From Granulosicoccus sp. (lineage in GTDB: Bacteria; Pseudomonadota; Gammaproteobacteria; Granulosicoccales; Granulosicoccaceae): a stretch of 53,646 nucleotides of DNA. Location: assembly GCA_020627685.1 (NCBI GenBank), contig JAHDGK010000036.1:1-53646 (forward strand), written 5' to 3'. Position numbers and translations under genes: made by a program. Below, one piece after another: positions 11,308 to 29,636 of the stretch (positions are counted from its first letter, which is position 1; every line of letters begins with the position of its first letter). The notes under the pieces are model-generated. The model was given only the letters and a program-made list of their open reading frames with translations, searched no databases and was not told the origin of the DNA.

Positions 11308-13386
11308 TCAGGATATTTTATCCAGCATCTTAATAGCAAATGCTTGCTCAAGCGCTACATCCGACAAACTGGCATAGCGCCCGGTCTCTCCAAAGTGTCC
11401 TGAGTGCATATTGGTTTTCAATAGCAAAGTTTGATCGTCGTCTCGCAGATGTCTGTGCTTAGCGACCCACTTTGCAGGCTCCCAGTAAGTTACTCGAGGG
11501 TCAGAGATTCCCGCAGTCACCAGCATGGGCGGGTATTCGCGCGCCTGAACGTTATCGTAAGGTGAATAGTCCAGAATATCTAAGAATGCTTGTTTGTCAT
11601 CGATTGGATTGCCCCACTGCGACCACTCACCAGGCGTTAAAGGCAATGAGTCATCCAACATCGTGTTCAACACATCGACGAAAGGAACATCTGCAATGGC
11701 AGCACCCCATAAATCACAATCGCGATTTAATGCTGCTCCCACTAACAGCCCGCCTGCAGAACCACCCACAATGATGATTTTGCCTTTTGATGTAAACGCG
11801 TGGTCAACCAGATAGTCACCCACGGCAATCAGATCGTCAATGCTCTTCGGCTTACCGCCAAAACGAGATGACTCGTACCAAGCGCGCCCTTTTTCCTGCC
11901 CGCCACGGACATGCGCAATCACATATATGAAGCCGCGATCAACCAAGGACAGTCGGTTAGTGCCAAAATCTGCAGGCATAGAGGAGCCATACGCTCCGTA
12001 CCCAGTCAGCCAGCACGGCGCCGAGCCATCAATAGCCGTGTCTTTATGATGCAGAACGGTTAACGGCACAGACTCGCCATCTGCCGACGACGCGTAGCGT
12101 CTAAGCACCACATAGTCATCAGGATTATGGCCACTGGGAATCAAATCTTCTTTGAGCAACACGCGCTCGCCACTGGTCATGGAAAAACTATAGGTACGCG
12201 AAGGTGTTGATGGCGACTCATAACCATAGTGGAAAATCTGTTCGTCAAATTCCAACAGTGGCTCTAAGCTCAATGCATAGGCCTCTTCTTCAAAATCGAT
12301 TCTTTGTATTTCATCGGAATCATTTCGTTTAAAGCAGATTCGCGGTAACGCGTTTTCGCGTTCCATCCACATTACCCAGTGTTTATAAGCATAGTGATCA
12401 AGCACCATTTTCCCTGACTCATAGGGCAACCAATCGACCCAATTACTTCGGGATGGGTGTTCACAGCTGACTTCCACTATTTTGAAGTCAACGGCGTCAT
12501 CGGCATTGGTGCGTATAAGAAATCTGTCACCCTGATGTTCAACACTGTATTCAATGCCGTCGGCACGAGGTTCAATGATGATGGGAGTGCCGGTGAGATC
12601 GTCTGTTGGTAGCATCCAGACTTCACTCTGGTCATTCATGTCGGATGAAATAAAAATATATTTTCCGGACAAACTGGTCCATACAGAGCAGTAAAACCGC
12701 GCATCCGTCTCTTCGTAAACTAAAACGTCCTCTGCTGCATCTGAACCCAACTTGTGCCGGAAGACTTTGCTCGGTCGGTGATCTTCGTTCAAGCGTGTAT
12801 AAAACAGGTAGATGCCGTCGCCCCAGGCAATGGATTCAACGTCTGATATCACATCTTCGTCTTTACCCGTAGCGATGTCTCTAATGAAAACGGTATAGCG
12901 TTCTGCTCCCGTGATATCAGCACTCCACGCTAAATGCGTATGCGTAGGGCTGTATTCGACATCGCCAGGATCAAAGTAATCGTGCCCTTCAGCCTCGATG
13001 TTAAAGTCGATGAGTTTCTCAGCGATGGATTCACTAAAAACAGCGCCTCTTGCATAACGCCAATAACTTGAGTGCTCATCGTCTCCCTGATAGCGTTCAA
13101 CGTAACTCCAGGTACCTTCTTCATCCGGAAGGGATACATCATCGGCTTGAATTCGACCTTTCATCTCGTCGAGTAATTGCCGTTGCAGTGACTGGGTGTC
13201 AGCCATAGCCGACGCACACCACTCATTCTCAGCGTCTAAATACGATTTGATATCGGGCGGTAACAGTGAAGGATCGTCCACACAGTCCGACCAGTTATCA
13301 GCCTTTAACCAACTGTAGTCATCGGTCAGTGGAAGGCCGTGAACGTGGCGGTATACAGGGAGTCTTTTTGCAACAGGTGGTTTCAT
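11308..13386 (-). CDS. S9 family prolyl oligopeptidase/oligopeptidase B-like serine peptidase
   Basis: A 692-residue peptidase with an N-terminal seven-blade beta-propeller (about 70-400) and a C-terminal alpha/beta-hydrolase domain. Catalytic residues visible are Ser in GGSAGG near 545, Asp in SDPRVTYWEP near 630 and His in HSGHFGETG near 665. The start PVAKRLPVYRHVHGLPLTDDYSWL is typical of PtrB. No signal peptide is seen, so it is cytosolic. Its ATG overlaps the stop of the dsrK-like gene by 4 bases, making it the last gene of the sulfur chain. Its place there is unexplained. Confidence 0.9.
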   Translation of the reverse strand: MKPPVAKRLPVYRHVHGLPLTDDYSWLKADNWSDCVDDPSLLPPDIKSYLDAENEWCASAMADTQSLQRQLLDEMKGRIQADDVSLPDEEGTWSYVERYQGDDEHSSYWRYARGAVFSESIAEKLIDFNIEAEGHDYFDPGDVEYSPTHTHLAWSADITGAERYTVFIRDIATGKDEDVISDVESIAWGDGIYLFYTRLNEDHRPSKVFRHKLGSDAAEDVLVYEETDARFYCSVWTSLSGKYIFISSDMNDQSEVWMLPTDDLTGTPIIIEPRADGIEYSVEHQGDRFLIRTNADDAVDFKIVEVSCEHPSRSNWVDWLPYESGKMVLDHYAYKHWVMWMERENALPRICFKRNDSDEIQRIDFEEEAYALSLEPLLEFDEQIFHYGYESPSTPSRTYSFSMTSGERVLLKEDLIPSGHNPDDYVVLRRYASSADGESVPLTVLHHKDTAIDGSAPCWLTGYGAYGSSMPADFGTNRLSLVDRGFIYVIAHVRGGQEKGRAWYESSRFGGKPKSIDDLIAVGDYLVDHAFTSKGKIIIVGGSAGGLLVGAALNRDCDLWGAAIADVPFVDVLNTMLDDSLPLTPGEWSQWGNPIDDKQAFLDILDYSPYDNVQAREYPPMLVTAGISDPRVTYWEPAKWVAKHRHLRDDDQTLLLKTNMHSGHFGETGRYASLSDVALEQAFAIKMLDKIS

Positions 13387-14885
13387 GTAAGAACCAGTGC
13401 GTCGCCAACCAGATGATGCAAACTGGTGACGCGCACGTCGACAAGATTATGGTGAGGCAACACAGAGCTTAACTGTGTTTTGCATATTGCACAGATAGCA
13501 ACCAGATGTGTCACTTGGTCGGAATTAACAACCGCCTGCAATGCTTGAGCACGAGGTAAGGAACCCTTAATGCGTATATCCATTAAGTCATCGGTCAGTA
13601 AACCTCCGCCCCCGCCACAGCAAAATGTAGTTTGTCCAACGGTATCTTTGCTCATCTCAACAAAGCCCGGGACGCTGGCTTTAAGAAGTTCTCGGGGAAT
13701 GGTCAACTGACCGTTAGCGACATTACCCATACCAGAGCCTCTAGCCACATTGCAGGAGTCGTGATAGGTCACAATAACACCCTCGTTGCGCGTCGGGTCC
13801 AACTGAATAATGCCTTGCTGCAGCAGCTGATGAGTGACTTCGCAAATATGCTCTGCTCGCGGATGCTCTTTTGACAGAAACTGCATGGGCCCGACTAAAG
13901 AATCGAGAAAGCTGTAAGCCACTCGCCACGCATGGCCACACTCGCCAATGACAATTCTATTGACCCCTAAGCCCATTGCGGCGTGCCTAATGCGTAGCGC
14001 TATTTCACGCATGTGATCGTGCTGCCCCGTAAACAAACCGAAGTTGGCAGCCTCAGAGGCTTCCGAGCTGAATGTCCAATGTATTCCGGCTTGATGCAAC
14101 ACCTTTGCATAACCGATAAGCCCGTCAACATGCGGCTCTGCAAAAAAATCCGCTGACGGTGTTACCACGAGCATGTCGGCCCCTTCCTCATCCAAAGGTA
14201 GCCGAACCGGTATGCCGGTTTCATCTAAGATATCTTCTTCTAGGTTCTCCAAGACATCGGCAAGAGCCCGGGGCTTCATCCCAAGGTTGTTACCCACGCT
14301 CTTAACCTTGGTTATGATTTCCTGCGAATACTGCTGCCCCAAACCAACACTGGCCAGCACCTCTCTGCCCGCCATGGTGACTTCAGAGGTATCAATACCC
14401 TTTGGACAAAACACCGTGCAACGACGGCACTCAGAACATTGATGGAAATAGGTGTACCACTGTTGTAATAAATTTTTATCAAGCTTTCGCGCACCCACGA
14501 GCCAAGGAAACCAACGACCGGCCCACGTAAAATAGCGACGGTAAACCGATCGAATAAGGTCTTGGCGAGCCACCGGCATATTGTTCGGATCGTGAGTGCC
14601 TAAAAAGTAATGACATTTGTCAGTACACGCTCCGCACTTAGTACAGGTATCCATGAATACCCGTAGGCCACGACGTTCCTTCAGCAACTGTCCCAAACGG
14701 GCAATAGCCTTATCGTGCCAGTCGTCAACCAATGTTCCCGGAAGCCCCAATGACTCCTGCACATCAGATTCGGCCACAGCGGTATTAAAGGACTCCCCGG
14801 CACCCTCTTGAATTAAGGGTATAACTTTATAGCGGCCTACCACTTGCGCTTGATCGGCAACCCCTTGAACATCCGGTGTGTTCAT
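13383..14885 (-). CDS. dsrK: DsrK-like (HdrD-type) iron-sulfur protein
   Basis: A 500-residue membrane-associated reductase subunit. Two ferredoxin-type 4Fe-4S sites are visible: Cys81, 84, 87, 91 (CTKCGACTDKC) and Cys150, 153, 156, 160 (CSECRRCTVFCPKG). A C-terminal CCG domain carries Cys378, Cys422-Cys423 (CCGGGGG) and Cys465/Cys468, the arrangement that holds the special catalytic 4Fe-4S centre in HdrB/HdrD/DsrK. In sulfur bacteria DsrK reacts with DsrC. The gene overlaps the cytochrome b gene by ATGA and the peptidase by 4 bases. Its identity as a DsrK family member is strong; participation in dissimilatory sulfur metabolism is inferred. Confidence 0.85.
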   Translation of the reverse strand: MNTPDVQGVADQAQVVGRYKVIPLIQEGAGESFNTAVAESDVQESLGLPGTLVDDWHDKAIARLGQLLKERRGLRVFMDTCTKCGACTDKCHYFLGTHDPNNMPVARQDLIRSVYRRYFTWAGRWFPWLVGARKLDKNLLQQWYTYFHQCSECRRCTVFCPKGIDTSEVTMAGREVLASVGLGQQYSQEIITKVKSVGNNLGMKPRALADVLENLEEDILDETGIPVRLPLDEEGADMLVVTPSADFFAEPHVDGLIGYAKVLHQAGIHWTFSSEASEAANFGLFTGQHDHMREIALRIRHAAMGLGVNRIVIGECGHAWRVAYSFLDSLVGPMQFLSKEHPRAEHICEVTHQLLQQGIIQLDPTRNEGVIVTYHDSCNVARGSGMGNVANGQLTIPRELLKASVPGFVEMSKDTVGQTTFCCGGGGGLLTDDLMDIRIKGSLPRAQALQAVVNSDQVTHLVAICAICKTQLSSVLPHHNLVDVRVTSLHHLVGDALVLT

Positions 14886-15598
14886 GACGAGTGTTCGCCT
14901 TTTTTAGTAGCTACGCTTACCGAAACGTTCTCGCGTTGATTAAGCGTCGGGGTAAACACGATACCAACACCATGAAGTAGTTTACTGATGGGGAAAACGA
15001 AGAAGAGCAGCAATACGAAAACAAGATGTATTACCAGCACAGCACCGTCGGGTAACGGTTGCCACTGAAAGCTTAATGCACCTCTTAGGAATTCACCCAC
15101 AGTGCTGGTATTAACTGGCCAGTGGCGCTTTAAGGCATATCCGGATAGAACAATGCAGAGTAGCAGCACTAGATGCAAATAATCACTGGGCGATGAGATG
15201 TAGCGAACGCGATCCACAATGATCCGGCGCAATAACAGAATACATAAACCCACAACTGCGGCAGCAACGGCCCAACCACTCCAAACAACAAACGGTATAA
15301 GCCAACCCGGAAGATACGCGAAGAAAAATCGCATATGCATAATGAGGATAAACAGCAAACCGTAGTGAAAGAGAATACTGGCTACCCAAGTTACTGTGTT
15401 CGCTCGAGCCAGTGCCCGAAATAAAAATATCTCTAAACACAGACGCCCTACGACACCCAAGCGAGTCCGAGGCGCCGGTGTTAAGGGGATAGGTAACGGC
15501 GAAGGTGTACGCACCCAAGTGACGATACGATAAAGCGTGCCCAACACTGCCCACAAAGCAAGCAGAGTAAAGCTGACTCCGAGGAGCGTATCAAACAC
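14882..15598 (-). CDS. dsrM: DsrM/NarI-like membrane cytochrome b subunit
   Basis: A 238-residue protein with about five transmembrane helices. Histidines inside helices (FHYGLLFILIMH, DYLHLVLLL, VIHLVFVLLLFF) are candidate ligands of two b hemes, as in NarI and DsrM. It would exchange electrons between the quinone pool and the DsrK-like subunit encoded by the next gene, with which it overlaps by 4 bases. The start is GTG at 15598, overlapping the end of dsrC by 8 bases. There is no narGH nearby, so a nitrate reductase role is unlikely. Confidence 0.83.
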   Translation of the reverse strand: MFDTLLGVSFTLLALWAVLGTLYRIVTWVRTPSPLPIPLTPAPRTRLGVVGRLCLEIFLFRALARANTVTWVASILFHYGLLFILIMHMRFFFAYLPGWLIPFVVWSGWAVAAAVVGLCILLLRRIIVDRVRYISSPSDYLHLVLLLCIVLSGYALKRHWPVNTSTVGEFLRGALSFQWQPLPDGAVLVIHLVFVLLLFFVFPISKLLHGVGIVFTPTLNQRENVSVSVATKKGEHSS

Positions 15599-15917
15599 AA
15601 CCAGTGGGTTTGGGTAATCCTGCGTATCGGCAGGCCTGCTTAGCGGGTCCCTTCGGGAACAATTCGTACAAGTACTTGCTGTTCCCTTTTTCTTGCCCGT
15701 AGCGTTTGCCTATTTGCTTGGTCAGAATACGAATTGCCGGGGCTATCTCATAGTTCTCGTAATACTCTTGCAGAAAAGAGATCACTTCCCAATGCGCATC
15801 GCTCAAGTCGATACCATCTGCGTTGGCCAACTCATCGGCCAATTCACGCGTCCAATCAGAGCGATTTTTCAAATACCCTTCATGGTCGGTTTCCAGAGAC
15901 TCGATTAATGTGCTCAT
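15591..15917 (-). CDS. dsrC: DsrC/TusE family sulfur carrier with both C-terminal cysteines
   Basis: A 108-residue protein with the DsrC fold: the LSDAHWEVISFLQEYYENYEIAPAIR helix block and the flexible tail ending KPTGCV. Cys107 is penultimate and Cys96 lies 11 positions earlier. True DsrC has both, whereas TusE, which serves tRNA thiolation, keeps only the last. The pair allows an intramolecular disulfide or a trisulfide to form and be reduced by DsrMK. The gene lies between the chelatase (14-base gap) and dsrM. No dsrEFH, tusBCD or dsrAB genes are in the window. Confidence 0.88.
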   Translation of the reverse strand: MSTLIESLETDHEGYLKNRSDWTRELADELANADGIDLSDAHWEVISFLQEYYENYEIAPAIRILTKQIGKRYGQEKGNSKYLYELFPKGPAKQACRYAGLPKPTGCV

Positions 15918-15931
15918 GTGCTGCTTTGTGG

Positions 15932-16291
15932 TTAAACGGCTAACTTTAAAAGTACATCGACAAGCTCGTCGGAGGTGCCCAGGTAATCGGTAATCTGGAT
16001 ATCCATGTCCGGGTATTCAGATTGTTTAATGGCGACCTGCTCAGGGATATCGTCAGCCACATGCGTACCTCTGGCAAGAAAGTAAGGCACGACACTAACG
16101 CTGGTTGCGCCTCGTTGTATGCACTTTTCAATACCATCTGGAATAAGTGGCTCGCACAATTCCAAAAACGCATGCTCAACAATTTGTACATCAGCGGAAG
16201 CCTTAGCGGCCAAACGATCACTTAGCCGAGCAATTTCCTGATTAGACTCAGCGCGTCTGCTTCCGTGTGCTACGAGTAAAATTGACTTCAT
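15932..16291 (-). CDS. Short CbiX/SirB-type chelatase (sirohydrochlorin chelatase-like)
   Basis: A 119-residue single-domain class II chelatase-like protein. It opens with LLVAHGSRR (His9) and has VVPYFLARGTHVADDIP (His77), the two histidines that bind metal and tetrapyrrole in CbiX-S/SirB. It may insert iron or cobalt into sirohydrochlorin or a related tetrapyrrole. Its ATG overlaps the hisD-like stop by one base (TAATG), and dsrC follows. Siroheme is the cofactor of sulfite reductases, so its placement here hints at siroheme supply to an enzyme encoded elsewhere. Confidence 0.82.
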   Translation of the reverse strand: MKSILLVAHGSRRAESNQEIARLSDRLAAKASADVQIVEHAFLELCEPLIPDGIEKCIQRGATSVSVVPYFLARGTHVADDIPEQVAIKQSEYPDMDIQITDYLGTSDELVDVLLKLAV

Positions 16292-17649
16292 TATTGATTA
16301 CCTTTTTTATCCAGAGCCATAGCCTGACCACGCAGTTCAGACACCGCGTTAGCATGGCCATCAAACCCTTCATACGTAGCAAAGCGATGTGTGTGCGGGG
16401 CCATTTCCGTATAACCCTTCGCCGTCATGTGACCCACCGAGCAGGTCTTCATAAAATCGTGCACACCCAGGGGCGAATGAGTCCGAGCAGCTGCAGAGGT
16501 AGGCAGCACACAATTGGGTCCCATCATGTAGTTGGCGATGGAACCGGCCGCGTGCTCACCTAACAATATTTCGCTGGCGTTTCTGATGTGTGACAAATGC
16601 TCGTAGGGCACTTTGGATAAAACCTGACAGTGCTCGGGCGCGTAATCGTTGATAAACGCATAAGCTGCCTCTGGGCTGTCCGCAAGCACCACCCCGCCTC
16701 GCATACCGCTGAGCACCGTCGAGGAGTAGCCCGCCAGTGTCTCGTTTTGTTTATCCCAATAATCGGGAATGGCGTACCTAACTTCTTCTGCAATTTCACG
16801 GCTCCACGTGACCAGAAACGAGCTGCTATCGGGGCCATGCTCGGATTCAATCGTCATATCCAGTGCAGCAACAAACGGATTAGCCGTCTCATCAGCCAAT
16901 ATGATGGTTTCGCTGGGACCTGCCGGTAAACCCGGATCTATGCGTCCAACCAGTCGCCGTTTAGCGGCTACTAACCAAGGACTACCCGGCCCCACTATCT
17001 TGAAACAGCGAGGAACACTCTGTGTACCAAAAGCCACCGCGGCAACTGCCTGAGCACCTCCGGCTTTGAAGACTCTTTCAACACCTGCCAGTCGAGCAGC
17101 CACCAAGGTCGCCGGATCGACGTTCCCGTCAGGACCCGGCGGTGTCAGTATGATGGGCTCTGGAACACCCGCCACGGATGCCGGAATGGCTGTCATTAAT
17201 GTGACTGATGGAAACGAGCCTTTTCCGCGTGGTGAATAGCAAGCAACAGAATCAATCGGCGTCGCCCTCTCCCCAACCAAAACACCGGGCCGAATCTCCT
17301 TCATCCACATTTCAGGTGGCAATTGAGCTTCGTGAAAACGACGTATGTTGTCAGCGGAATACTCCAGCGTTTCAACCATAGCCTTATCGATTTTATCGAA
17401 AGCGCTATCAATATCGGCTTTGGTAGCGGCGATTGAACCAGCCGTTAAAGAACTTGCTCCGTCGAATTCTCTGCCAAATCGGGCCAGCGCTTCGTCACCC
17501 TCTTCGCGGACGGCTTCAATGATGGGGTCAACACCTGCAAGAAAACTATCCAAGTCGTCTTCTGCCCGGCTCAGCAGGCTCTCGTACTCATGAGACGAAA
17601 GCTTTGCGAGTTCGTGAAGAGCAACCTCGGGATATTGACGAATCGACAT
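16291..17649 (-). CDS. Histidinol-dehydrogenase-family protein, probably not HisD (HpsN-like?)
   Basis: A 452-residue NAD-dependent alcohol dehydrogenase of the HisD fold, first gene of the sulfur chain. The NAD-site block KAGGAQAVAAVAFGT and LPAGPSETIILAD are conserved, as is the catalytic pair Glu339-His340 (APEHCQ). Of the four E. coli HisD zinc ligands, His262 and His419 are kept (His271, His432), but Gln259 aligns with Glu268 and Asp360 with Asn373. No other his gene is nearby. HpsN, a family member, oxidises 2,3-dihydroxypropane-1-sulfonate to sulfolactate. Such a sulfonate role is plausible given the sulfur neighbours but unproven. Confidence 0.82.
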   Translation of the reverse strand: MSIRQYPEVALHELAKLSSHEYESLLSRAEDDLDSFLAGVDPIIEAVREEGDEALARFGREFDGASSLTAGSIAATKADIDSAFDKIDKAMVETLEYSADNIRRFHEAQLPPEMWMKEIRPGVLVGERATPIDSVACYSPRGKGSFPSVTLMTAIPASVAGVPEPIILTPPGPDGNVDPATLVAARLAGVERVFKAGGAQAVAAVAFGTQSVPRCFKIVGPGSPWLVAAKRRLVGRIDPGLPAGPSETIILADETANPFVAALDMTIESEHGPDSSSFLVTWSREIAEEVRYAIPDYWDKQNETLAGYSSTVLSGMRGGVVLADSPEAAYAFINDYAPEHCQVLSKVPYEHLSHIRNASEILLGEHAAGSIANYMMGPNCVLPTSAAARTHSPLGVHDFMKTCSVGHMTAKGYTEMAPHTHRFATYEGFDGHANAVSELRGQAMALDKKGNQ

Positions 17650-17852
17650 AATGGGCCATTGGATGATGAAAACTGGTGGCTGTTTAAATTCAGCCTAGAT
17701 ACCCGCTGCGCAGAACCTGTTACGCAGTCGGATTCAGCCTCTAAGTATACCTTTTACGGCACTGGCCCCATAGAGACACCCCACTCTGTTCAAACAAAGC
17801 TCTGTAGACACAAATTCACAGCAAATCAGCATGCTAATATCCAGTCAAATTG
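17650..17852. other. Divergent intergenic region between the sulfur chain and the polyamine cluster
   Basis: About 200 bases between two divergent operons, and so the expected promoter region for both. I could not pick out a convincing operator or a sigma-70 pair. If the first PuuB-like protein starts downstream at the GTG at 17910, this leader is longer. Confidence 0.4.
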
Positions 17853-19229
17853 ATGCTAAATCTGCAGGTTTATCCGCCGGCGGCTTTAACCAACGCTCTC
17901 AGGTCACTCGTGCAAAACACTTCACAATCAGCGGTCTCAGCTGACGCTTCCATACAACACACCGGAAGCTACTACGCCGCGTCAGCCAACCCAGCTCCCG
18001 AGCGGGAATCGCTTCAAGGAGCCATCGACGCTGACGTATGCGTTATTGGAGGTGGCTTCAGCGGTCTTTCAGCAGCCCTCCACCTGACCGCCCAAGGCCG
18101 ACACGTCACACTAATTGAAGGTGCCCGCATCGGTTGGGGTGCGTCTGGTCGCAACGGTGGCCAGCTCATCCACGGTTTGAACGCAAGCCTTGAAACTGTA
18201 GGAAAACGATACGGTCAGGAAACAGCAAATTTTATCGGTGGCTTGGTGCAGGAAGGCGCTGGCGTCATTCGGCAATTTGTTCAGGAACACTCTATTTCCT
18301 GTGACATTAAGCAGCGCAGTATTTTCGCAGCCTTTAACGCCCGTCAAATGAAGGAACTGGAAGCCAAGCAAATTTTGTGGCGCAAGCACGGCATGGATGA
18401 TCACGAGATGCTGGATAAAAACAGCATTCGAGACCACATTGGAACGGACGCGTATCTGGGCGGCATGCTCGACCATTCAGGCGGTCATATCCATCCACTG
18501 AATCTTGCGCTTGGCGAAGCGGCTGCGCTGGAAAAGCAAGGCGGCAAAATTTACGAGCAATCCAGAGTCACGCGTGTGGACTCCATTGAGACAAAGCCTG
18601 TGGTTATCACCGATCACGGAGAGGTCCGCTGCAAGACACTCGTTGTCTGTGGAAACGCTTATTTAGGAAAAAGCATTCCCATTCTCGAGCCGCGAGTAAT
18701 GCCGGTTTCCACGCAAGTCATGGCAACAGAGCCATTGTCCGATGAACAGGCACAATCACTCTTACCCAGTGATAGTTCTGTTGAAGACGTTCGCTACATT
18801 CTCGATTACTACCGCTTGTCTGCCGATAAAAGACTGCTATGGGGTGGCGGCACCGTTTACGGTGGCAGCGAACCATCTGACATCATTGCCAAGTTGCGAC
18901 CGAACATGGAAAAAATATTTCCAGAGCTTGCCGGCGTAAAAATATCTCACGCCTGGAGCGGCAACTTCGCACTGACATTTACCCGAGTACCTCTTCTCGG
19001 GAAACTGGGTCCAGACACTTACTACGCGATGGGCTACAGTGGACATGGAGTCACCGGCACACACTTGTTCGGTAAATTACTCTCAGAAGCTGTTGGTGGA
19101 GATCCATCTCGTTTTGACAAATTTGCAGCGTTACCCTGGTATCCATTCCCTGGTGGCCAGAGATTTCGTGCCCCCTACTCCACCGTCGGCTCTTGGTGGT
19201 ATGGCATGAGAGATAAACTGGGTATTTAA
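17853..19229 (+). CDS. puuB: FAD-dependent gamma-glutamylputrescine oxidase-like protein (PuuB family)
   Basis: About 458 residues, a DAO-fold flavoenzyme. The DVCVIGGGFSGLSAALHL dinucleotide motif lies near 65, then GWGASGRNGGQL, and near the end YAMGYSGHGVTGTHLFGKLL. PuuB oxidises gamma-glutamylputrescine to gamma-glutamyl-aminobutyraldehyde with release of ammonia and peroxide. The family start (SYYAAS) appears only about 42 residues in, so the first 20-40 residues are an unusual extension or the true start is GTG 17910. It is followed 6 bases later by the amidotransferase gene. Confidence 0.85.
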   Translation: MLNLQVYPPAALTNALRSLVQNTSQSAVSADASIQHTGSYYAASANPAPERESLQGAIDADVCVIGGGFSGLSAALHLTAQGRHVTLIEGARIGWGASGRNGGQLIHGLNASLETVGKRYGQETANFIGGLVQEGAGVIRQFVQEHSISCDIKQRSIFAAFNARQMKELEAKQILWRKHGMDDHEMLDKNSIRDHIGTDAYLGGMLDHSGGHIHPLNLALGEAAALEKQGGKIYEQSRVTRVDSIETKPVVITDHGEVRCKTLVVCGNAYLGKSIPILEPRVMPVSTQVMATEPLSDEQAQSLLPSDSSVEDVRYILDYYRLSADKRLLWGGGTVYGGSEPSDIIAKLRPNMEKIFPELAGVKISHAWSGNFALTFTRVPLLGKLGPDTYYAMGYSGHGVTGTHLFGKLLSEAVGGDPSRFDKFAALPWYPFPGGQRFRAPYSTVGSWWYGMRDKLGI

Positions 19230-19235
19230 ACCGCT

Positions 19236-19979
19236 ATGAATACAATTGCTGATACAAACAATCAAAACGTTCGACTCGGCGTACTTCAAGCGGGTCGCGT
19301 GCCACCAGAAATGGCTGACGAGCATCTGGATTACGACCAGTTGTTTGTGCGTTTGCTAGGCGAAGATTCTTTTGAGTATCACCACTGGGCCGTTCTCGAT
19401 GGATTCATGCCAGACAGCATTGACGATGCAGACGCCTGGCTTATCACCGGCTCTCGTTTCGGCGCCTATGAAGACTTGCCGTGGATACCACCGCTAGAAG
19501 ATTTCATCAGAGAAGTTTATGCCAGCGAAAAACCGATGGTGGGCATTTGTTTCGGGCATCAAGTTATCGCACAGGCACTGGGTGGGAAAGTCGAAAAATT
19601 TAACGGTGGCTGGTCGGTTGGTCGAGTGGAATACAACTTGGATGAATCGGTTTGGGGCAGTGCGAATCACAAAACAACTGACCAAACAGCGCTATTAGCA
19701 TTTCATCAAGACCAAGTCGTTGTAGCACCCGACTCTGCCAAAACAGTTGGCAGCACTGACTTTTGCGAGCACGCGGCACTACTGTACGGAAACCAGATGC
19801 TCACCATCCAACCACACCCGGAATTTTATTCAGAATTCATTGGCGGCTTACTTGAAGCCAGACGGAATATCTTGCCCGAAGACATTCGAGAAGGTGCAGC
19901 AGAAACGTTGCACCAACCTATTGTCCGGGAACCCATCGCTGACACGTTGCGAAACTTTTTAAAACGAGAAAACGTGTAA
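19236..19979 (+). CDS. Class I glutamine amidotransferase-like hydrolase
   Basis: A 247-residue stand-alone GATase-1 domain. The nucleophile elbow GICFGHQ (Cys) lies near residue 105 and the His-x-Glu of the triad in QPHPEF near 193. It is the GMP-synthase-like (YfeJ-type) subfamily, not the C26 PuuD family. Set between a PuuB-like oxidase and a PuuA-like ligase, it could hydrolyse gamma-glutamyl-GABA or another gamma-glutamylated intermediate in place of PuuD, which is not in the window. That role is inferred from position. Confidence 0.82.
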   Translation: MNTIADTNNQNVRLGVLQAGRVPPEMADEHLDYDQLFVRLLGEDSFEYHHWAVLDGFMPDSIDDADAWLITGSRFGAYEDLPWIPPLEDFIREVYASEKPMVGICFGHQVIAQALGGKVEKFNGGWSVGRVEYNLDESVWGSANHKTTDQTALLAFHQDQVVVAPDSAKTVGSTDFCEHAALLYGNQMLTIQPHPEFYSEFIGGLLEARRNILPEDIREGAAETLHQPIVREPIADTLRNFLKRENV

Positions 19980-20024
19980 CTCACATTAACGATCTATTAA
20001 CACCCAACAAACAGTGCGAAACCT

Positions 20025-21395
20025 ATGAGTACAAACTCGAAGTGGATGGAGCAACTTCCCGAAGCCTTCCACACATGGCTAAACGGCAGGCGTGTTGACG
20101 ACGTAGAGTGCGTGATTGCAGATATTGCAGGAACCTCGCGAGGCAAGGCAATGCCTGCGCGAAAGTTCGCTCGTGCCGATGCCATGTACTTACCCACCTC
20201 TATTTTTTATCAAACTATTACCGGTGAATACGTTGATCTTGAAGACATGGAAGATCAATGGACCGAATCGGATTTGGTATTAACGCCCGATTTTTCCGCA
20301 GCCACAGCTGTTCCCTGGTCTGACGATGTCACACTTCAAGTTGTTCATGACATATCGCATCAAGACGGCACACCAGTAGGCATGGCACCACGCAATGTTC
20401 TCAAACGTGTTGTCAGTGAATATCTAAAACACGGCTGGCGTCCTGTTGTCGCACCAGAGTTAGAGTTTTACTTAACCAAACCGAACATTGACCCTAACCT
20501 GCCGGTCGAACCACCCATTGGCAGAACAGGCCGACAAGGCATTGCAAAGCAAGCTTATTCAATGAGCGCCGTTGAAGAGTACGGCCCTGTTATTGATGAC
20601 ATCTATGACTTTGCCGACGCTCAAGGGTTTGAAATTGACACCATCATTCAAGAAGGTGGTGCCGGACAAATTGAAATAAATTTGCAACATGGCGATCCGG
20701 TACATCTGGCAGATCAAGTGTTCTTTTACAAAAGGCTGATACGTGAGGCCGCGCTTCGCAATAATTGCTTCGCAACCTTTATGGCCAAGCCGATGGAAGA
20801 GCAACCCGGTAGCGCCATGCATATCCATCAAAGCGTCATCAATACGTCCGATGGTAAAAACATATTCAATACTGACGATAACCAACCTACCGAACTGTTC
20901 TATGGATTCCTCGGTGGCCAGCAAGCACTGATTCCAGACATCCTGTGCATACTTGCCCCGTATGTAAATTCCTATCGACGCTTCCGTCGCGATGACTCTG
21001 CACCTATAAACTTGGAATGGGGCACTGACAACAGAACAACCGGCATTCGTGTTCCCCTCTCAAGCCCACAAAGCCGACGTATTGAAAACCGTGTGGTCGG
21101 TATGGATTGCAATCCGTACTTGGCTATTGCAGCAAGCCTTGCATGTGGACTCATCGGTATGCGCAATAAGATGCAACCCCGCGCAGCCGTGACCAGTGAC
21201 GCCTACTCACTGCCGCACGACCTACCTATCGATTTAACAAGAGCATTGGAGTTGTTTGACGAGAACCCGGAAATAAACGAGCTTCTGGGCAAAGACTTTT
21301 GCTCTTTATACAGCGCGATTAAGCACCAGGAGTCGGATGCATTTCTACAAGTCATTAGCCCCTGGGAACGCGAACACTTGTTGTTAAACGTATAA
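20025..21395 (+). CDS. puuA: Gamma-glutamylpolyamine synthetase (glutamine synthetase family, PuuA-like)
   Basis: A 456-residue glutamine-synthetase-fold ligase that joins glutamate to an amine with ATP. Seen: VVAPELEFYL near 145 and AGQIEINLQHGDPV near 210 (metal-binding glutamates), PGSAMHIHQS near 268 (catalytic-site His), and NRTTGIRVPLSSPQSRRIENRVVGMDCNPYLAIAASLACG, where the MDCNPYLA segment is PuuA-like rather than GlnA-like. No adenylylation tyrosine motif is evident. Flanking PuuB-like genes support gamma-glutamylation of putrescine or a related amine; the exact amine is uncertain. Confidence 0.86.
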   Translation: MSTNSKWMEQLPEAFHTWLNGRRVDDVECVIADIAGTSRGKAMPARKFARADAMYLPTSIFYQTITGEYVDLEDMEDQWTESDLVLTPDFSAATAVPWSDDVTLQVVHDISHQDGTPVGMAPRNVLKRVVSEYLKHGWRPVVAPELEFYLTKPNIDPNLPVEPPIGRTGRQGIAKQAYSMSAVEEYGPVIDDIYDFADAQGFEIDTIIQEGGAGQIEINLQHGDPVHLADQVFFYKRLIREAALRNNCFATFMAKPMEEQPGSAMHIHQSVINTSDGKNIFNTDDNQPTELFYGFLGGQQALIPDILCILAPYVNSYRRFRRDDSAPINLEWGTDNRTTGIRVPLSSPQSRRIENRVVGMDCNPYLAIAASLACGLIGMRNKMQPRAAVTSDAYSLPHDLPIDLTRALELFDENPEINELLGKDFCSLYSAIKHQESDAFLQVISPWEREHLLLNV

Positions 21396-21419
21396 AACAA
21401 ATACAGCATTGATGCCTTT

Positions 21420-22724
21420 ATGAAGCTGCTACACGCTAACGATAAGCGCGGCCAACACGCGGCATCTTGGTATGAAGCTACCTGTGCAACGCCAACCCGC
21501 CCTACGTTAGAAACCGAGATCACGCACGACGTGTGCGTCATTGGAGCAGGCTTTACAGGACTGTCTGCAGCCTTAGAGCTGGCAAAGAACGGTACATCCG
21601 TGGCCGTACTTGATGCTCATCGAGTCGGTTGGGGTGCGTCCGGTCGCAATGGCGGACAACTGGGCAGTGGGTTCAACCAGGATCAGCGATCACTTCAAGA
21701 GTCCCTGGGCTTGGAGAATGCGCGAACGCTTTGGCGCTTTAGTGAAGAGGCTAAACAATTTGTTCATGATTTATCTGCCGAGCATCATTTCGACGTCGAG
21801 TACAAACCCGGCATTGTCAGCGCATTACACAAGGCAAAATTTCTCCCGCATTTGCAGGAGTATTGCCAGTTTATGCAAAAGGAATATCACTACGATGCCT
21901 TAGAAGCTCTAGACCGAAACGCATTGAATGAAAGGGTTCGTAGTGATGATTATCACGGCGGTGCCATTGATCATGGAGCTGGCCACATTCACCCACTGAA
22001 ATTCGCCCTCGGCATGGCATCGGCAGCTGAGAAATCTGGCGCCAGCATTTTTGAAATGAGCGAAGTTATTCGCATTGAGCCATTGCAACAGTCTTCCGGT
22101 TACCGGGTGGTGACCAGTCAAGGTAGCGTGCTGTGCGAGAAAATCGTTCTGGCTACCAACGGGTACCTCGACGATTTAAAACCCGAAGTTAATCGGTGGA
22201 TTATGCCCATCAATAATTTCATTGTTGTAACAGAGCCACTCGGCGACTTGGCAACGCAGCTTCTCCCCAAAGACAATGCCATTGCAGATTCCCGCTTTGT
22301 TGTTAATTACTACCGTCGCGTAGACAACGACAGATTGCTGTTTGGTGGTGGAGAAAATTACTCTTATCGTTTTCCAGATTCCATAGACGGCATTGTCAGG
22401 AAGGCCATGCTCGGTATTTTTCCGGAACTTGAACAAGCAAAAATTGACTATGCGTGGGGAGGAACACTGGCCATTACCCGAAGCCGTCTTCCTTATGCCA
22501 GCGAGCTTTCAAAAGGTGTTTACACCGCGGGCGGTTTCTCCGGTCACGGTGTTGCATTAGCAGGTTTCTACGGCCGGTCGATAGCGAAACATATCCAAGG
22601 TGATACCGAGTCGTTTGACCTGCTGAGCACACTACCCACAAAGCCATTTCCAGGAGGAGCAGCCTTGCGCCCTGCTCTATTGGCCGTGGCAATGACCGGA
22701 TATTCCTGGCTGGACAAGATTTAG
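21420..22724 (+). CDS. Second FAD-dependent PuuB-like amine oxidase
   Basis: A 434-residue paralogue of the enzyme at 17853. Motifs are DVCVIGAGFTGLSAALEL near 40, GWGASGRNGGQLGSGFNQD near 72, and the C-terminal AGGFSGHGVALAGFYGRS. The N-terminal SWYEA replaces SYYAA. The two oxidases share the same fold and motifs but differ clearly, which suggests different gamma-glutamyl-amine substrates. It starts 24 bases after the ligase gene and ends the polyamine cluster. Confidence 0.87.
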   Translation: MKLLHANDKRGQHAASWYEATCATPTRPTLETEITHDVCVIGAGFTGLSAALELAKNGTSVAVLDAHRVGWGASGRNGGQLGSGFNQDQRSLQESLGLENARTLWRFSEEAKQFVHDLSAEHHFDVEYKPGIVSALHKAKFLPHLQEYCQFMQKEYHYDALEALDRNALNERVRSDDYHGGAIDHGAGHIHPLKFALGMASAAEKSGASIFEMSEVIRIEPLQQSSGYRVVTSQGSVLCEKIVLATNGYLDDLKPEVNRWIMPINNFIVVTEPLGDLATQLLPKDNAIADSRFVVNYYRRVDNDRLLFGGGENYSYRFPDSIDGIVRKAMLGIFPELEQAKIDYAWGGTLAITRSRLPYASELSKGVYTAGGFSGHGVALAGFYGRSIAKHIQGDTESFDLLSTLPTKPFPGGAALRPALLAVAMTGYSWLDKI

Positions 22725-24200: not shown

Positions 24201-24839
24201 TTAATTGTTGAATGCCGACTGTAGTTCGTCGACATCGTTCTCGTTAAGTAATTTCACCCGCTTATCCATTGCTTCAATCGTTAAACGGGCTGCCGCTTCA
24301 AGTTCTTCCATCGCATAGACGGCCGAACGCAGCGATTTACCGGCCACCACTGGCCCATGGCTAGCAAGGACAACTGCCTTACGCTGACCACGTAATGATC
24401 GAACCGCATCTCCCATTGCCCCGTCTCCAGGTTTAAAGTATGGAAGTAGCTTTACCCTGCCCAACTTCATTATTGAATATGGGGTTATCGGCGGAATCAT
24501 ATTATCCGGGTCCGTCTCCGGGAGCATAGAAAGAAGAACGCTATAGTGAGAATGAAGATGAACCACCGCGCCGACATCAGCATCTGACGATTCATAGAAG
24601 GCAGTGTGTAAGCACATTTCTTTCGTGGGAGGATCTCCATCGACCAGACGGCCCTGACTATCAATTAGGGATAAACGAGCAGGATCCAAAAAACCAAAGC
24701 TTGAATTTGTTGGTGAAACTATAAGCCCACCATCGGAGCATCTAACCGACAAGTTTCCTGTAGAGCCGTGAGTAAGACCTCGATCGTATAAGCTCTTAGC
24801 CAATAGACATATCTCTTCACGCAACGCAGTCTCACTCAT
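24201..24839 (-). CDS. otnC: 3-oxo-tetronate 4-phosphate decarboxylase (class II aldolase family)
   Basis: A 212-residue AraD/FucA-fold zinc enzyme. Seen: the HGSTGNLSVR phosphate-binding segment near 25, Glu near 74 (TKEMCLH) and the HLHSH metal motif near 95, plus LASHGPVV near 157. In the characterised tetronate route OtnC decarboxylates 3-oxo-tetronate 4-phosphate to dihydroxyacetone phosphate. It overlaps the kinase gene by 4 bases (ATGA), which supports the OtnC reading over other aldolases. Confidence 0.86.
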   Translation of the reverse strand: MSETALREEICLLAKSLYDRGLTHGSTGNLSVRCSDGGLIVSPTNSSFGFLDPARLSLIDSQGRLVDGDPPTKEMCLHTAFYESSDADVGAVVHLHSHYSVLLSMLPETDPDNMIPPITPYSIMKLGRVKLLPYFKPGDGAMGDAVRSLRGQRKAVVLASHGPVVAGKSLRSAVYAMEELEAAARLTIEAMDKRVKLLNENDVDELQSAFNN

Positions 24840-26083
24840 CCTAGGGCTTCCACTGCATCTTGAAAAAAGTGCCTATGCCCAAAGTTGCCGGACTTCAACG
24901 CCAATGCTAGCTCGCGGTTCACAACTTTAAGTGAAGGTACGCCCGGTGCAATCTCAGAACCAACCTCCATAGCATCGATTTCCAATGCATGGACCACCGC
25001 ACCCGAAGTCTCTCCTCCCGCTGTCACAATTTTACTAAAGCCTTCTAGTGCAAGTAACCGAGCCAGATTTCCGAAAAATGACTCAATCTGATTTGCGATG
25101 GATTCAGCACCATACTTTTCTTGAGATAATTTAACGACGCACGGATCAGCAGACGTATAAACAAGGGGAGTTTGATCCTGATCGAGAATCCAATCCACAA
25201 CCTCTTGAAGAATCGTCTGCTCGTTGTGAATCTTATCTGCACTAAGCTCTAACCAAGGGTGACCTTTTTTATACTCTTCAATTTGTGCCCGAGTTGCTTC
25301 AGAACATGAACCAGACAAAATGACACCTCTGCCCTTCACACCACGCCACGTGCCTAGGCTGCCATTTAGTTTCCCTAAACCTCTGTAAATTTCCGGCAAA
25401 CCGAGAGCAAGACCAGAGCTACCGGTTAAGAGCTTGGAGCACGCCATGGATTTACTCAGATGTATTAAATCGTCGTCATGGATGGCATCAGCAATGAAAT
25501 ATCCCGGGCCCTCATCTCTTAAAAATTGTGAAATAGTCTCTACACCGTTCGAAACAATCCCATAAGGCACGTGTTTGATCGGAGTGCTTGTTTGGGAACT
25601 AAGCCATCGTCTTAGATCGGAATCTGTCATGGGTGTCAAAGGATGATTCTTCATACTGCTTTCATGTAGTGGAGAATCGTTTACGAAAAGTTGCCCTTGA
25701 TACACGGTCCTGCCGGCAGCTGGAAATGCCGGTGAAAAAAGTACCTGTGATTCATCGAGCAAGCCAGCCAATGCATCGGCAACAGGTCCAATATTGCCCT
25801 CTTTAGTGGAATCAAATGTAGAGCAGTATTTAAAGTAGAGCTGCTCACACCCCTGATCCAGTAACCAACGCGCAGCCTTCAAAGATTCTTCAACAGCTTC
25901 ATTAGCTGGCACGGTCCTAGTCTTGAGCGATACGATTCCAGCGTCAACAGATTCAGGCGCAGTCAGTTTCGGAACACCACTGTAAAGTGCACTCTGCATC
26001 CCACCATTCGTTAGAGTATTGGCAATATCGCTGGCACCGGTAAAGTCATCGGCAATGCACCCCAAAATCATGCTATTGCTCAC
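24836..26083 (-). CDS. otnK: 3-oxo-tetronate kinase (DUF1537/four-carbon acid sugar kinase family)
   Basis: A 415-residue kinase. The N-terminal domain starts LGCIADDFTGASDIANTL and contains YFKYCSTFDSTKEGNIGPVADAL near 105. The C-terminal nucleotide-binding domain has VTAGGETSGAVVHAL near 355. It phosphorylates a 3-oxo-tetronate at O4 using ATP. A GTG at 26083 starts inside the end of the ABM gene, and an ATG at 26071 is an alternative. Coupling with OtnC points to OtnK rather than the D-threonate kinase DtnK, which pairs with PdxA2. Confidence 0.88.
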   Translation of the reverse strand: MSNSMILGCIADDFTGASDIANTLTNGGMQSALYSGVPKLTAPESVDAGIVSLKTRTVPANEAVEESLKAARWLLDQGCEQLYFKYCSTFDSTKEGNIGPVADALAGLLDESQVLFSPAFPAAGRTVYQGQLFVNDSPLHESSMKNHPLTPMTDSDLRRWLSSQTSTPIKHVPYGIVSNGVETISQFLRDEGPGYFIADAIHDDDLIHLSKSMACSKLLTGSSGLALGLPEIYRGLGKLNGSLGTWRGVKGRGVILSGSCSEATRAQIEEYKKGHPWLELSADKIHNEQTILQEVVDWILDQDQTPLVYTSADPCVVKLSQEKYGAESIANQIESFFGNLARLLALEGFSKIVTAGGETSGAVVHALEIDAMEVGSEIAPGVPSLKVVNRELALALKSGNFGHRHFFQDAVEALG

Positions 26084-26363
26084 TCACTAGTTGATAGGAT
26101 TTTACCGTCTTTACTACAATCAGCTCAGCTACACACTTATCGTAGTGTTTGAAGTGGTCTGTATTCAGATGCGAGGTGAAAGCATCACGAGATTCATAAA
26201 TTTCATACAAAAAAACTTCATTGTTCTCATCACTACTGCATACATCAAACGTATGACAATCGATTTCACGACTTAAAGACTCACGAGCATTTTTAAGTGT
26301 CGCATTTAAAAAGGCATTCTTGTGCTCAGGAATTACGGTAAACGAGACGCAAACAACGTACAT
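26073..26363 (-). CDS. ABM-domain (antibiotic biosynthesis monooxygenase-like) protein
   Basis: A 96-residue dimeric alpha/beta-barrel-type protein. YVVCVSFTVIPEHKNAFLNATLKNARESL and the VFLYEIYESRDAFTSHLNTDHFKHY block are typical of the YgiN/LsrG-like ABM family. Members include quinol monooxygenases and isomerases. The ATG at 26363 has a GGAGAAA ribosome site and is preferred over an upstream start at 26399. It lies between the lactonase-like gene and otnK. A role as isomerase in the sugar-acid route is possible but not shown. Confidence 0.8.
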   Translation of the reverse strand: MYVVCVSFTVIPEHKNAFLNATLKNARESLSREIDCHTFDVCSSDENNEVFLYEIYESRDAFTSHLNTDHFKHYDKCVAELIVVKTVKSYQLVSEQ

Positions 26364-26428
26364 TAATTGGTTTCTCCAGTACTTATTTGACAGCGGCAAA
26401 GTTAAAAGAAGTGCTTGATAAACGATCG

Positions 26429-27232
26429 CTATTGCAGCGGACAGCTGTCGACAACACCTTTATCCAACCTGCGAACAAAAGACGCATAGGTTTCTGGGAA
26501 GTAATCCAAGACTAAGGGATCATGCCCGGGTACTATCAGAGTAGCGTGCGTACACAAATTTCGGATTCTAGAAAACCCTGCCAGCATATCCTCCGCATCT
26601 ACAACAATCGGAAATAGCTTGTTTTCAAGATAGTTTTCGTAATAGTGGCTTGCATCGGATGCCAACACCAACCAACCCGAATCGGTAAACACCCTGACGA
26701 CTTGCAATCCTCGGGAGTGACCACCAACTAGATGCACACTCACTCCGCTGGTGACTGTTGAGTCGCCTGTATGAAAAACTAATTTATCGGAATACAGCTT
26801 ATCAATAGCCGAATGAATATGGTTATTCGAATAGGGCATTCTAAGTACTTGATGACACATGCAAGGGCCTGTGGCATAGGTCATTTCGGCTTGTTGCAAG
26901 TGCACTGTTGCATTAGGAAAAAGATGTAACCCACCGGCATGGTCATAATGCAGGTGCGTGCAAATGATGCTTTTTACCTGCTCAGGGTGGATACTCAATG
27001 GTGCTAGCGCTTCAACAGGACTTAAACGGATAGGCCGCCCCCGTTTCTTAGCCTCTTCATGATCATAGCCCGTATCAACCAAAATAACGTCGGTGCCCTG
27101 TTTTAAAACCCAAATGTAGTATTCCATTTGATGCGCACTGCTACTGTGATCATCAAACAAAAAGCTATCCGCTCGAGTTCGGCCCTGTCTTTGCGCGTAG
27201 TTAATTGCGTACACTTCCCATACATCTGTCAT
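26429..27232 (-). CDS. Metallo-beta-lactamase-fold hydrolase, N-acyl-homoserine-lactonase-like
   Basis: A 267-residue MBL-fold protein with the di-zinc motif HLHYDHAGG (His93, His95, Asp97, His98), a later His in VGGHSRG, Asp in ASDASHYYEN and His in VPGHDPL. The layout matches AhlD/AttM-type lactonases. In this sugar-acid operon it more probably opens a sugar-acid lactone than a quorum signal, though quorum quenching cannot be excluded. There is no signal peptide. It starts 49 bases after the transporter gene tctA. Confidence 0.83.
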   Translation of the reverse strand: MTDVWEVYAINYAQRQGRTRADSFLFDDHSSSAHQMEYYIWVLKQGTDVILVDTGYDHEEAKKRGRPIRLSPVEALAPLSIHPEQVKSIICTHLHYDHAGGLHLFPNATVHLQQAEMTYATGPCMCHQVLRMPYSNNHIHSAIDKLYSDKLVFHTGDSTVTSGVSVHLVGGHSRGLQVVRVFTDSGWLVLASDASHYYENYLENKLFPIVVDAEDMLAGFSRIRNLCTHATLIVPGHDPLVLDYFPETYASFVRRLDKGVVDSCPLQ

Positions 27233-27281
27233 GACTGATCTGCCCGGCTCAAAGTAAAAAAATTACTTAACACCTCTGTAC

Positions 27282-29542: not shown

Positions 29543-29571
29543 ATTTAAGCCAACCCGCTTGAATTAAATCA

Positions 29572-29621
29572 AGTGCGTTGCATTCACTGCTTTAAAAGAC
29601 TTCATGTGAATACAACGCACT
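29572..29621 (-). terminator. Long hairpin between tctC and tctB
   Basis: AGTGCGTTG (29572-29580) pairs with CAACGCACT (29613-29621). After one mismatch, ATTCAC (29582-29587) pairs with GTGAAT (29606-29611), leaving an 18-base loop. It lies in the 94-base gap after the binding-protein gene. Such elements often stabilise the upstream message or partly stop transcription, giving more binding protein than permease. The T run is weak (TTGATTTAATT). Confidence 0.6.
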
Positions 29622-29636
29622 ACGACTTACAATCGA

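Follow-up and report, generated by a model that had tools for sequence, protein, structure and literature searches.

A conserved dsrC-dsrM-dsrK module without dissimilatory sulfite reductase in the genus Granulosicoccus

Introduction

The oxidative (reverse) Dsr pathway is encoded, as in Allochromatium, by a gene cluster with the full order dsrABEFHCMKLJOPN. In this work we describe a reduced arrangement in which dsrC, dsrM and dsrK stand together on a 53,646-nucleotide stretch of DNA from Granulosicoccus sp. (contig JAHDGK010000036.1 of NCBI GenBank assembly GCA_020627685.1; this whole stretch is hereafter called the window). The genome to which the window belongs (G000; a draft of 4.93 Mb in 117 contigs, 99.5% complete) was compared with those of 26 other sampled species of this marine genus, resulting in a set of 27 genomes, several of them incomplete. 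The genus keeps DsrC and DsrMK without sulfite reductase or the known TusA-DsrEFH donors and with the redox residues intact, a situation in which the three proteins probably have a function of their own.

DsrMK is assigned, from its protein families, a thiol/disulfide:quinone role with DsrC as the substrate, and DsrC and DsrMK are treated as partners of DsrAB, with DsrABCMK as the minimal set, in the portions of PMC10504309 available to us. The same source describes DsrMK-only complexes in archaeal and some bacterial sulfite/sulfate reducers, which likewise lack DsrJOP; these organisms mostly have dsrAB, whereas the DsrK studied here is near the oxidative type and belongs to an aerobe without dsrAB. 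The occurrence of DsrMK without DsrAB has been mentioned in print already, for Halomonas titanicae SOB56 (available portions of PMC9237845) and for some Chloroflexi and seven assemblies of a basal DsrK clade (PMC10504309, same portions). Unlike the window-type genomes described below, the Halomonas strain retains DsrEFH/TusBCD, and what was available of these two reports contains no genus-wide dsrC-dsrM-dsrK unit free of the sulfur relay. Regarding the genus itself, the accessible part of PMC9238374 reports a kelp on which Granulosicoccus was the most abundant bacterium, obligate aerobiosis for G. antarcticus, and cysI, sox and dmdA genes in kelp Granulosicoccus, the string 'dsr' appearing there once, in a reference. 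Among the matches listed in our literature search, mostly open-access, no title or abstract dealt with Granulosicoccus dsr genes or with a relay-free DsrC-DsrMK, a form that on this basis appears to be undescribed.

Results

Genes of the locus and missing Dsr partners

The initial annotation had identified a chain of six minus-strand genes in the window. All six open reading frames were found in that order at the positions given below, and family searches agreed with the names assigned to them, though DsrM scored below its curated cut-off:

11308..13386, minus strand: S9 oligopeptidase, oligopeptidase B-like (PF02897 and PF00326)
13383..14885, minus strand: dsrK, 500 aa (NCBIfam DsrK, 529 bits against a cut-off of 400)
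14882..15598, minus strand: dsrM-like gene, 238 aa, NarI-type membrane cytochrome b subunit (PF02665, 50 bits)
15591..15917, minus strand: dsrC, 108 aa (PF04358, 150 bits)
15932..16291, minus strand: short CbiX/SirB-type chelatase, 119 aa (PF01903, 104 bits)
16291..17649, minus strand: HisD-family dehydrogenase (PF00815, 437 bits) of a genus-wide subfamily with the motifs ESEH and NYMMGPNC

The spacings along the chain from the hisD-like gene through cbiX, dsrC, dsrM and dsrK to the S9 gene are −1, +14, −8, −4 and −4 bp. The DsrC protein ends in the tail KQACRYAGLPKPTGCV, in which CysB and CysA lie 11 residues apart at the C-terminus, and the DsrK protein contains two CxxCxxCxxxC motifs together with CCG-type cysteines. 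By analogy with their families, from which the ligand roles are taken, DsrK would carry two 4Fe-4S sites and a CCG domain, and DsrM two hemes b.

A search of the G000 genome with the dsrA profile TIGR02064 gave no match over the cut-off, and the only matches to NIR_SIR (PF01077) were a 555-aa CysI-type frame (contig C62) and an 829-aa NirB-type frame (contig C82). The absence of a dissimilatory sulfite reductase that had been proposed for this locus was thus upheld at the level of the genome. There were likewise no matches in G000 to the DsrE family (PF02635; DsrH, PF04077, was not searched genome-wide) or to TusA (PF01206), so that no complete dsrABEFH set came to light elsewhere in the genome. 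The window's dsrC was the single match to the DsrC/TusE family in the whole of G000. Searched with the DsrK protein, this genome gave a single matching place, and with the DsrK profile two, one of them listed over the cut-off. Finally, dsrL, dsrJOP and dsrN were not found in the window locus, the scope of this result being the locus only, with no genome-wide search. In comparison with the oxidative Dsr pathway, DsrC, DsrM and DsrK are shared in sequence, key residues and gene order, with a DsrK that sits beside the operon clade, whereas dsrA, the DsrE family and TusA are missing from the genome, dsrL, dsrJOP and dsrN are missing from the locus, and DsrC presents another conserved sequence in its helix 53-67.

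Distribution of the module within and beyond the genus

A DsrK match along with a strongly matching DsrC was found in 26 of the 27 Granulosicoccus genomes (DsrK being in pieces in G004 and G011), the lone exception being G013, with no DsrK match. According to the context of these genes we distinguished a dsr operon with dsrA over the cut-off (type A; G005, G010, G015, G020 and G022), the window's arrangement (type B; 15 of the 27 genomes) and dsrCMK located elsewhere (type C; G002, G009, G016, G021 and G025). One further genome, G011 (63% complete), showed dsrC and pieces of a dsrK-J-O-P series with no dsrL between K and J. The dsrA gene exceeded the cut-off in all five type A genomes and in none of the 15 type B (three of them under 85% complete) or the five type C genomes. 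The distribution of the sulfur-delivery proteins was similar: TusA was present in 5/5 type A, 0/15 type B and 1/5 type C genomes (G016), and the DsrE family in 5/5 type A genomes, with one weak match each in type B (1/15; 25.9 bits) and type C (1/5; 27.0 bits). A one-contig member of the genus (G023, 7.78 Mb) also has the type B cluster and no dsrA over the cut-off. Each genome of the genus thus contains either the operon or the orphan module, as if the copy in the operon could replace the orphan one. Taken together, the lack of sulfite reductase and sulfur-delivery proteins and the intact key residues of DsrC and DsrMK described below suggest a stand-alone job for this pair in most sampled members of the genus.

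A collection of named genomes was scanned with two peptide patterns. Among the 80 loci with the best DsrK of the matches listed, L122-L124 (type B) and L176 (type C, with 2.0 kb of upstream flank) stood alone in showing no dsr genes other than C, M and K; in the remaining 76, the flank covered contained dsrA/B or further genes of the operon. Three Granulosicoccus loci of this collection encode DsrK proteins 78-79% identical to that of the window, with HisD adjoining dsrCMK. In a class-wide check of 369 genomes, DsrK exceeded the cut-off in 127 and dsrA in 111. DsrK without dsrA over the cut-off was found in 17 genomes, six of which had a dsrA fragment. The remaining 11 comprised four operons truncated at the edge of a contig (G102, G220, G303 and G351), three Granulosicoccus, a dsrMK-dsrL arrangement in G318 (72% complete), dsrK-dsrJ alone in G317, and a dsrEFH-C-M-K arrangement without dsrAB in two genomes of another gammaproteobacterial family (G278, locus L238, 84% complete; G373, locus L237, 71% complete). 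In this sample, dsrC-dsrM-dsrK without neighbouring dsr genes was exclusive to Granulosicoccus, a statement on gene neighbourhood, since TusA and DsrE were not searched in the other genomes.

A second reduced form of the Dsr pathway is represented by dsrC-M-K-J-O-P, which in G035 (L077) forms a locus without AB, EFH and L and in G011 (L245, L246) occurs in pieces; neither genome has dsrA over the cut-off or a match to the DsrE family or TusA. As an additional observation, an S24-like gene and a CysG-like gene, named by eye, adjoin dsrK in G373.

Gene order in type B genomes and their relatives

The genes dsrC, dsrM and dsrK were adjacent in this order in all 15 type B genomes, so that a chance arrangement can be dismissed. 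The S9 gene followed dsrK in 13 of them, CbiX was present in 10, and all six genes were found in order on one contig in seven. With gene starts projected from those of the window, the 8-bp overlap between dsrC and dsrM was retained in 11/15 genomes and the 4-bp overlap between dsrK and S9 in 9 of the 13 with S9. The gene order is therefore partly conserved in relatives: the idea of a six-gene chain was borne out for its dsrC-dsrM-dsrK core and not for its full length, and the conserved unit is dsrC-dsrM-dsrK. S9 oligopeptidase is possibly just co-transcribed with dsrK, and cbiX is a neighbour rather than a core part of the module.

The gap between HisD and CbiX ranged from −4 to 841 bp in type B genomes with both genes on one contig, and it was 1626 bp, with a gamma-glutamyltransferase gene in between, in G004. 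In type A genomes, HisD was found without dsrCMK in 5/5 cases (16-18 kb fetched around the gene), with CbiX in 3/5 surroundings, gamma-glutamyltransferase in 1/5, a SoxYZ-like pair in 2/5 and CysG downstream in 4/5. In the three type C genomes examined, HisD was followed by gamma-glutamyltransferase and had no dsrCMK nearby; conversely, dsrCMK occurs without HisD in type C. This loose spacing, together with the separate occurrence of HisD and dsrCMK, identifies HisD/CbiX as an older neighbourhood beside which dsrCMK has been placed as a separate block. Twelve of the type B rows form one cluster in the HisD tree (93/86), and the type B genome G004 joins G011 and four of the five type A genomes (94/94). 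Possibly, the dsrCMK block was lost from type A lineages upon gaining, or while keeping, the full operon.

Some additional features of these neighbourhoods were recorded. In G027, dsrC and dsrM-dsrK are located on separate contigs (loci L078 on C30 and L243 on C16), indicating that adjacency is not needed for the retention of all three genes. A gene for a Peptidase_S24-like small protein is found near dsrK in genomes without dsrAB (L085:7521-7898, where the assignment comes from a Pfam run on this copy only, and the same cluster in L089, L091, L094, L097 and L078), and a copy in a dsrAB genome (L081) sits far from dsrK. The SoxYZ-like pair was located beside HisD/CbiX in L100:7271-7974, L099:7604-8400 and L103; the SoxY-like protein of L100 stops before the end of the SoxY profile that holds the GGCGG motif (profile positions 45-141 of 149, below the cut-off).

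Conservation and phylogeny of the module

Residues expected to take part in redox chemistry were retained. In DsrK, 14 cysteines were conserved in every group (26 operon-side, 14 type B, five type C and two EFHCMK rows). The four histidines of DsrM were kept in 27/27 aligned rows, which include 11 of the 15 type B genomes. Both DsrC cysteines were present in 15/15 type B genomes, and no DsrC tail recovered from the loci of types A, B and C lacked either of them. No stop codons were found within the matched DsrK frames, the lone TGA counted for G000 being the gene's own end, beyond which the match extends. The ratio of non-synonymous to synonymous substitution rates (dN/dS) was 0.047-0.081 for dsrK in 4/4 genome pairs and 0.031-0.044 for dsrC in 2/4 pairs, synonymous divergence (dS) being saturated in the other two; over all genes, dS was saturated in 9 of 23 gene-pair comparisons, and G012 was used in two pairs. 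These values indicate that the genes are under purifying selection.

In three DsrK trees, the type B sequences (14 of the 15 genomes) were on one side of a branch supported at 100/100. In the tree of 47 rows, which took full rows from 14 of the 23 operon loci chosen, a branch at 85/92 separated the operon-type sequences, including G027 and G035, from the B, C4 (a group of type C), G016 and EFHCMK rows; one earlier tree contained neither EFHCMK row and was short of several operon rows. Long branches are present in these trees, G003 and G017 among them, and G004, whose gene is cut by a contig end, is in none. In an approximately unbiased (AU) test carried out on 33 of the 47 rows, forcing type B DsrK together with the operon clade of the family was not rejected (p-AU 0.18), and the same constraint was rejected for the C4 group (p-AU 0.005). 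The former value means that type B DsrK may descend from the operon of the family.

A sequence signature was observed in the DsrC helix at residues 53-67, which reads LQEYYxNYxIAPAIRI in the window and mostly LREYYxEYQIAPAVRV beside dsrAB. Among 86 DsrC rows, which include the type C locus L176 (set aside for the Arg53 count), operon-linked DsrC had Arg53 in 85/85, Val65 in 78/86 and Val67 in 84/86. In contrast, Gln53, Ile65 and Ile67 were found in all 19 DsrC proteins of type B (15/15) and the C4 group (4/4). Arg53 is kept in G016, which has TusA, and in G278 and G373, which have DsrEFH, as well as in G035, G027 and G011, with neither TusA nor DsrE-family matches. The Gln-Ile-Ile set is characteristic of the B and C4 modules, Gln53 alone not being unique to them, and it may have arisen by shared ancestry or by convergence. 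The Gln53 of the Tus-type DsrC of G031 considered below and the Arg53 of the relay-less G035, G027 and G011 imply that the signature is not simply tied to loss of the relay.

The HisD-like protein and its neighbourhood

The nearest solved relatives of the window's HisD-like protein were HisD entries (218-262 bits), followed by 2,3-dihydroxypropanesulfonate (DHPS) dehydrogenases (175-205 bits). In all 22 rows of its subfamily, glutamate replaces the zinc-binding glutamine, asparagine replaces the zinc-binding aspartate and cysteine replaces the histidine of the HisD motif. These substitutions affect two of the four zinc ligands (Gln, His, Asp and His in HisD), although Glu and Asn may also bind metal; in HisD proteins from other families, of which 10 rows were recovered out of 12 fetched, the canonical QAEH and DY are present. 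It has to be noted that these counts refer to rows kept by a simple open reading frame caller, from which G003 and a fragment in G008 are missing, that L064 duplicates the HisD gene of L100 and was not counted, and that paralogues L112-L114 have ESEH with the second motif unmatched. The window protein thus has in common with HpsN and HisD the family PF00815 and differs from them in these three positions and in the motif GRY[A/S]H of HpsN, which contains the sulfonate-binding His126 (this motif and the zinc ligands are taken from the accessible portion of PMC11382572): the window has GKGSF at this site, and the HpsN motif is absent from every pattern-matched row of the subfamily. A paralogue in G000, on contig C107, does bear it, in the context LacI-HisD-SDR (by eye).

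Most loci of types A, B and C have, divergently upstream, the whole or part of a set of glutamine-synthetase-, amidotransferase- and FAD-oxidase-like genes. Their copies in the window (amine-type cluster, 17850-22724) resemble, below the cut-off, gamma-glutamylputrescine synthetase, glutamine synthetases and amine oxidases. This neighbourhood suggests a role of the HisD-like protein in amine or gamma-glutamyl chemistry.

A function in histidine biosynthesis was considered and rejected, as hisG, on contig C93, has no HisD-family match beside it and the zinc ligands are altered. No HisD with canonical motifs was found in G000 (contigs C93, C102 and C107, corresponding to L111, L105 and L106), though hisG is present. 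In G012, G018 and G023, a further group of HisD paralogues was noted next to an ABC transporter of the polyamine type (by eye); these observations on the HisD subfamily and its paralogues refer to the window gene and to L115-L119.

Discussion

On the basis of these data we propose that dsrC-dsrM-dsrK encodes a functional, stand-alone thiol:quinone oxidoreductase, which probably oxidises sulfide or small thiols and delivers the electrons to the respiratory chain. Gene content, missing partners, retained redox residues and purifying selection are observed, and from them we infer the activity of the module, its direction and its substrate. DsrC would be a soluble dithiol protein that alternates between its reduced state and one with an intramolecular disulfide (or trisulfide), and with which the CCG-type iron-sulfur site of DsrK would exchange two electrons; DsrM would relay these electrons through its two putative hemes b to the quinone pool. 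Such a module would operate independently of sulfite reductase and of the TusA-DsrEFH persulfide relay; with DsrAB and TusA-DsrEFH both absent, DsrC has neither its known product step nor its known donor. Because the genus is aerobic, electrons are expected to flow from DsrC to quinone. The oxidised substrate would be a small sulfur nucleophile of the cytoplasm, with sulfide or a low-molecular-weight thiol as the likeliest candidates, and would be converted into a persulfide or disulfide. This class of reductant is preferred because, in type C, a Blh-type persulfide-dioxygenase-like gene lies beside dsrCMK in 2/5 loci (379-384 bits, below the cut-off of 625, covering the C-terminal two thirds of the profile) and a YedE-type pair adjoins dsrCMK in 3/5; no neighbour of either kind was recognised beside dsrCMK in type B. 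HisD and CbiX would be mere neighbours, outside the mechanism.

A more specific version of this proposal, possible but doubtful, is that DsrC-DsrMK acts as a cytoplasmic sulfide (or thiol):quinone oxidoreductase without a sulfurtransferase relay. In this case the DsrC disulfide would capture sulfide, DsrMK would re-oxidise DsrC with transfer of the electrons to quinone, and the sulfane sulfur would pass to a small thiol, for example glutathione, and on to a persulfide dioxygenase. If true, this would be a second biochemical route to the job of SQR, built from a piece of the Dsr pathway.

Several observations speak against a stand-alone oxidoreductase. The window's DsrM scores 101 bits in NCBIfam DsrM, below the curated cut-off of 300, and position 405 of DsrK is cysteine in 92% of operon-side rows and in all type C rows, and valine in all type B rows. 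The Tus-type DsrC of G031 (L120) also has Gln53; as a separate observation, this genome has DsrE-family and TusA matches and no DsrK match. No sulfide- or persulfide-specific gene was recognised beside dsrCMK in the window, SQR and persulfide dioxygenase not having been searched genome-wide. Furthermore, G000 carries a sox cluster, with soxB over the cut-off and SoxX-, Y-, Z-, A-, C- and D-like frames around it (by eye), so that sulfur oxidation would be possible there by other means; this objection is softened by the six type B genomes that have no SoxB over the cut-off, the other 9 of the 15 having it. Finally, the sequences would also be compatible with the reductive direction.

This last alternative, a quinol-driven reduction of a DsrC disulfide or persulfide that would supply thiol reductant or release sulfide, is in line with the function of DsrMK as the reductive partner of DsrC in sulfite reducers (PMC10504309, available portions). 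We consider it unlikely in view of the obligate aerobiosis of G. antarcticus (PMC9238374, accessible part), and also in view of general redox knowledge, according to which reducing a disulfide of the thiol range with ubiquinol is uphill. A further reading, in which the module survives by chance as the decaying remnant of an ancestral sulfur-oxidising dsr operon, can draw on the full dsr operons of the family, on the AU result for type B DsrK, on the divergence of DsrM and on the cysteine lost at position 405. Even so, we judge it quite improbable, as a relic would hardly be expected to show stop-free DsrK frames, 14 DsrK and both DsrC cysteines retained across type B, low dN/dS values and presence in nearly the entire genus. 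There is very little to be said for DsrC serving only tRNA thiolation as TusE, with DsrMK being incidental: the window's DsrC is indeed the sole candidate for such a role in G000, but the TusA and DsrE-family (TusD/TusC-type) partners were not found there, and the DsrC and DsrMK genes overlap. Least probable of all, to the point of being practically dismissed, is an ordinary dsr system that is merely split, its dsrAB lying elsewhere or having dropped out of the assembly. G000 is a fragmented draft, which would allow it, but no dsrA exceeds the cut-off throughout type B (15 genomes, three of them under 85% complete), the one-contig genome included, and the NIR_SIR matches in G000 are accounted for by the CysI-type and NirB-type frames.

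The initial annotation had pictured a 'rewired' module in which the HisD-like dehydrogenase would act on a substrate, perhaps a sulfonate, and so supply a tetrapyrrole-dependent or thiol-based sulfur step with DsrMK as its drain. The part of it referring to a DsrC-DsrMK module without dsrAB, conserved in relatives, is supported; the rewiring through a sulfonate dehydrogenase is not, and we regard it as marginally less credible than a role as TusE. It is true that hisD, cbiX and dsrC are contiguous in G000 and that HisD-family DHPS dehydrogenases exist (PMC11382572, accessible portion). The missing DHPS-dehydrogenase motif, the two zinc-ligand changes and the adjoining gamma-glutamyl amine-type cluster, from which HisD is divergent in types A, B and C, leave a sulfonate-fed step unsupported, and so do the separate occurrence of HisD and dsrCMK and the variable HisD-CbiX spacing. 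Likewise, since CbiX is missing in five of the 15 type B genomes, a tetrapyrrole-dependent step is no fixed part of the system.

Interpreting dsrCMK as a stand-alone thiol:quinone oxidoreductase opens, in culturable aerobes, the question of how DsrMK deals with DsrC in the absence of sulfite chemistry. It also means that a genome or metagenome with dsrC, dsrM or dsrK should not, on that ground alone, be credited with sulfite reduction or reverse-Dsr sulfur oxidation. Elsewhere in the window, positions 24201-30662 contain (by eye) a TctABC-type transporter together with a kinase of the DUF1537 type and a class II aldolase, a set that is likely to serve the catabolism of sugar acids.

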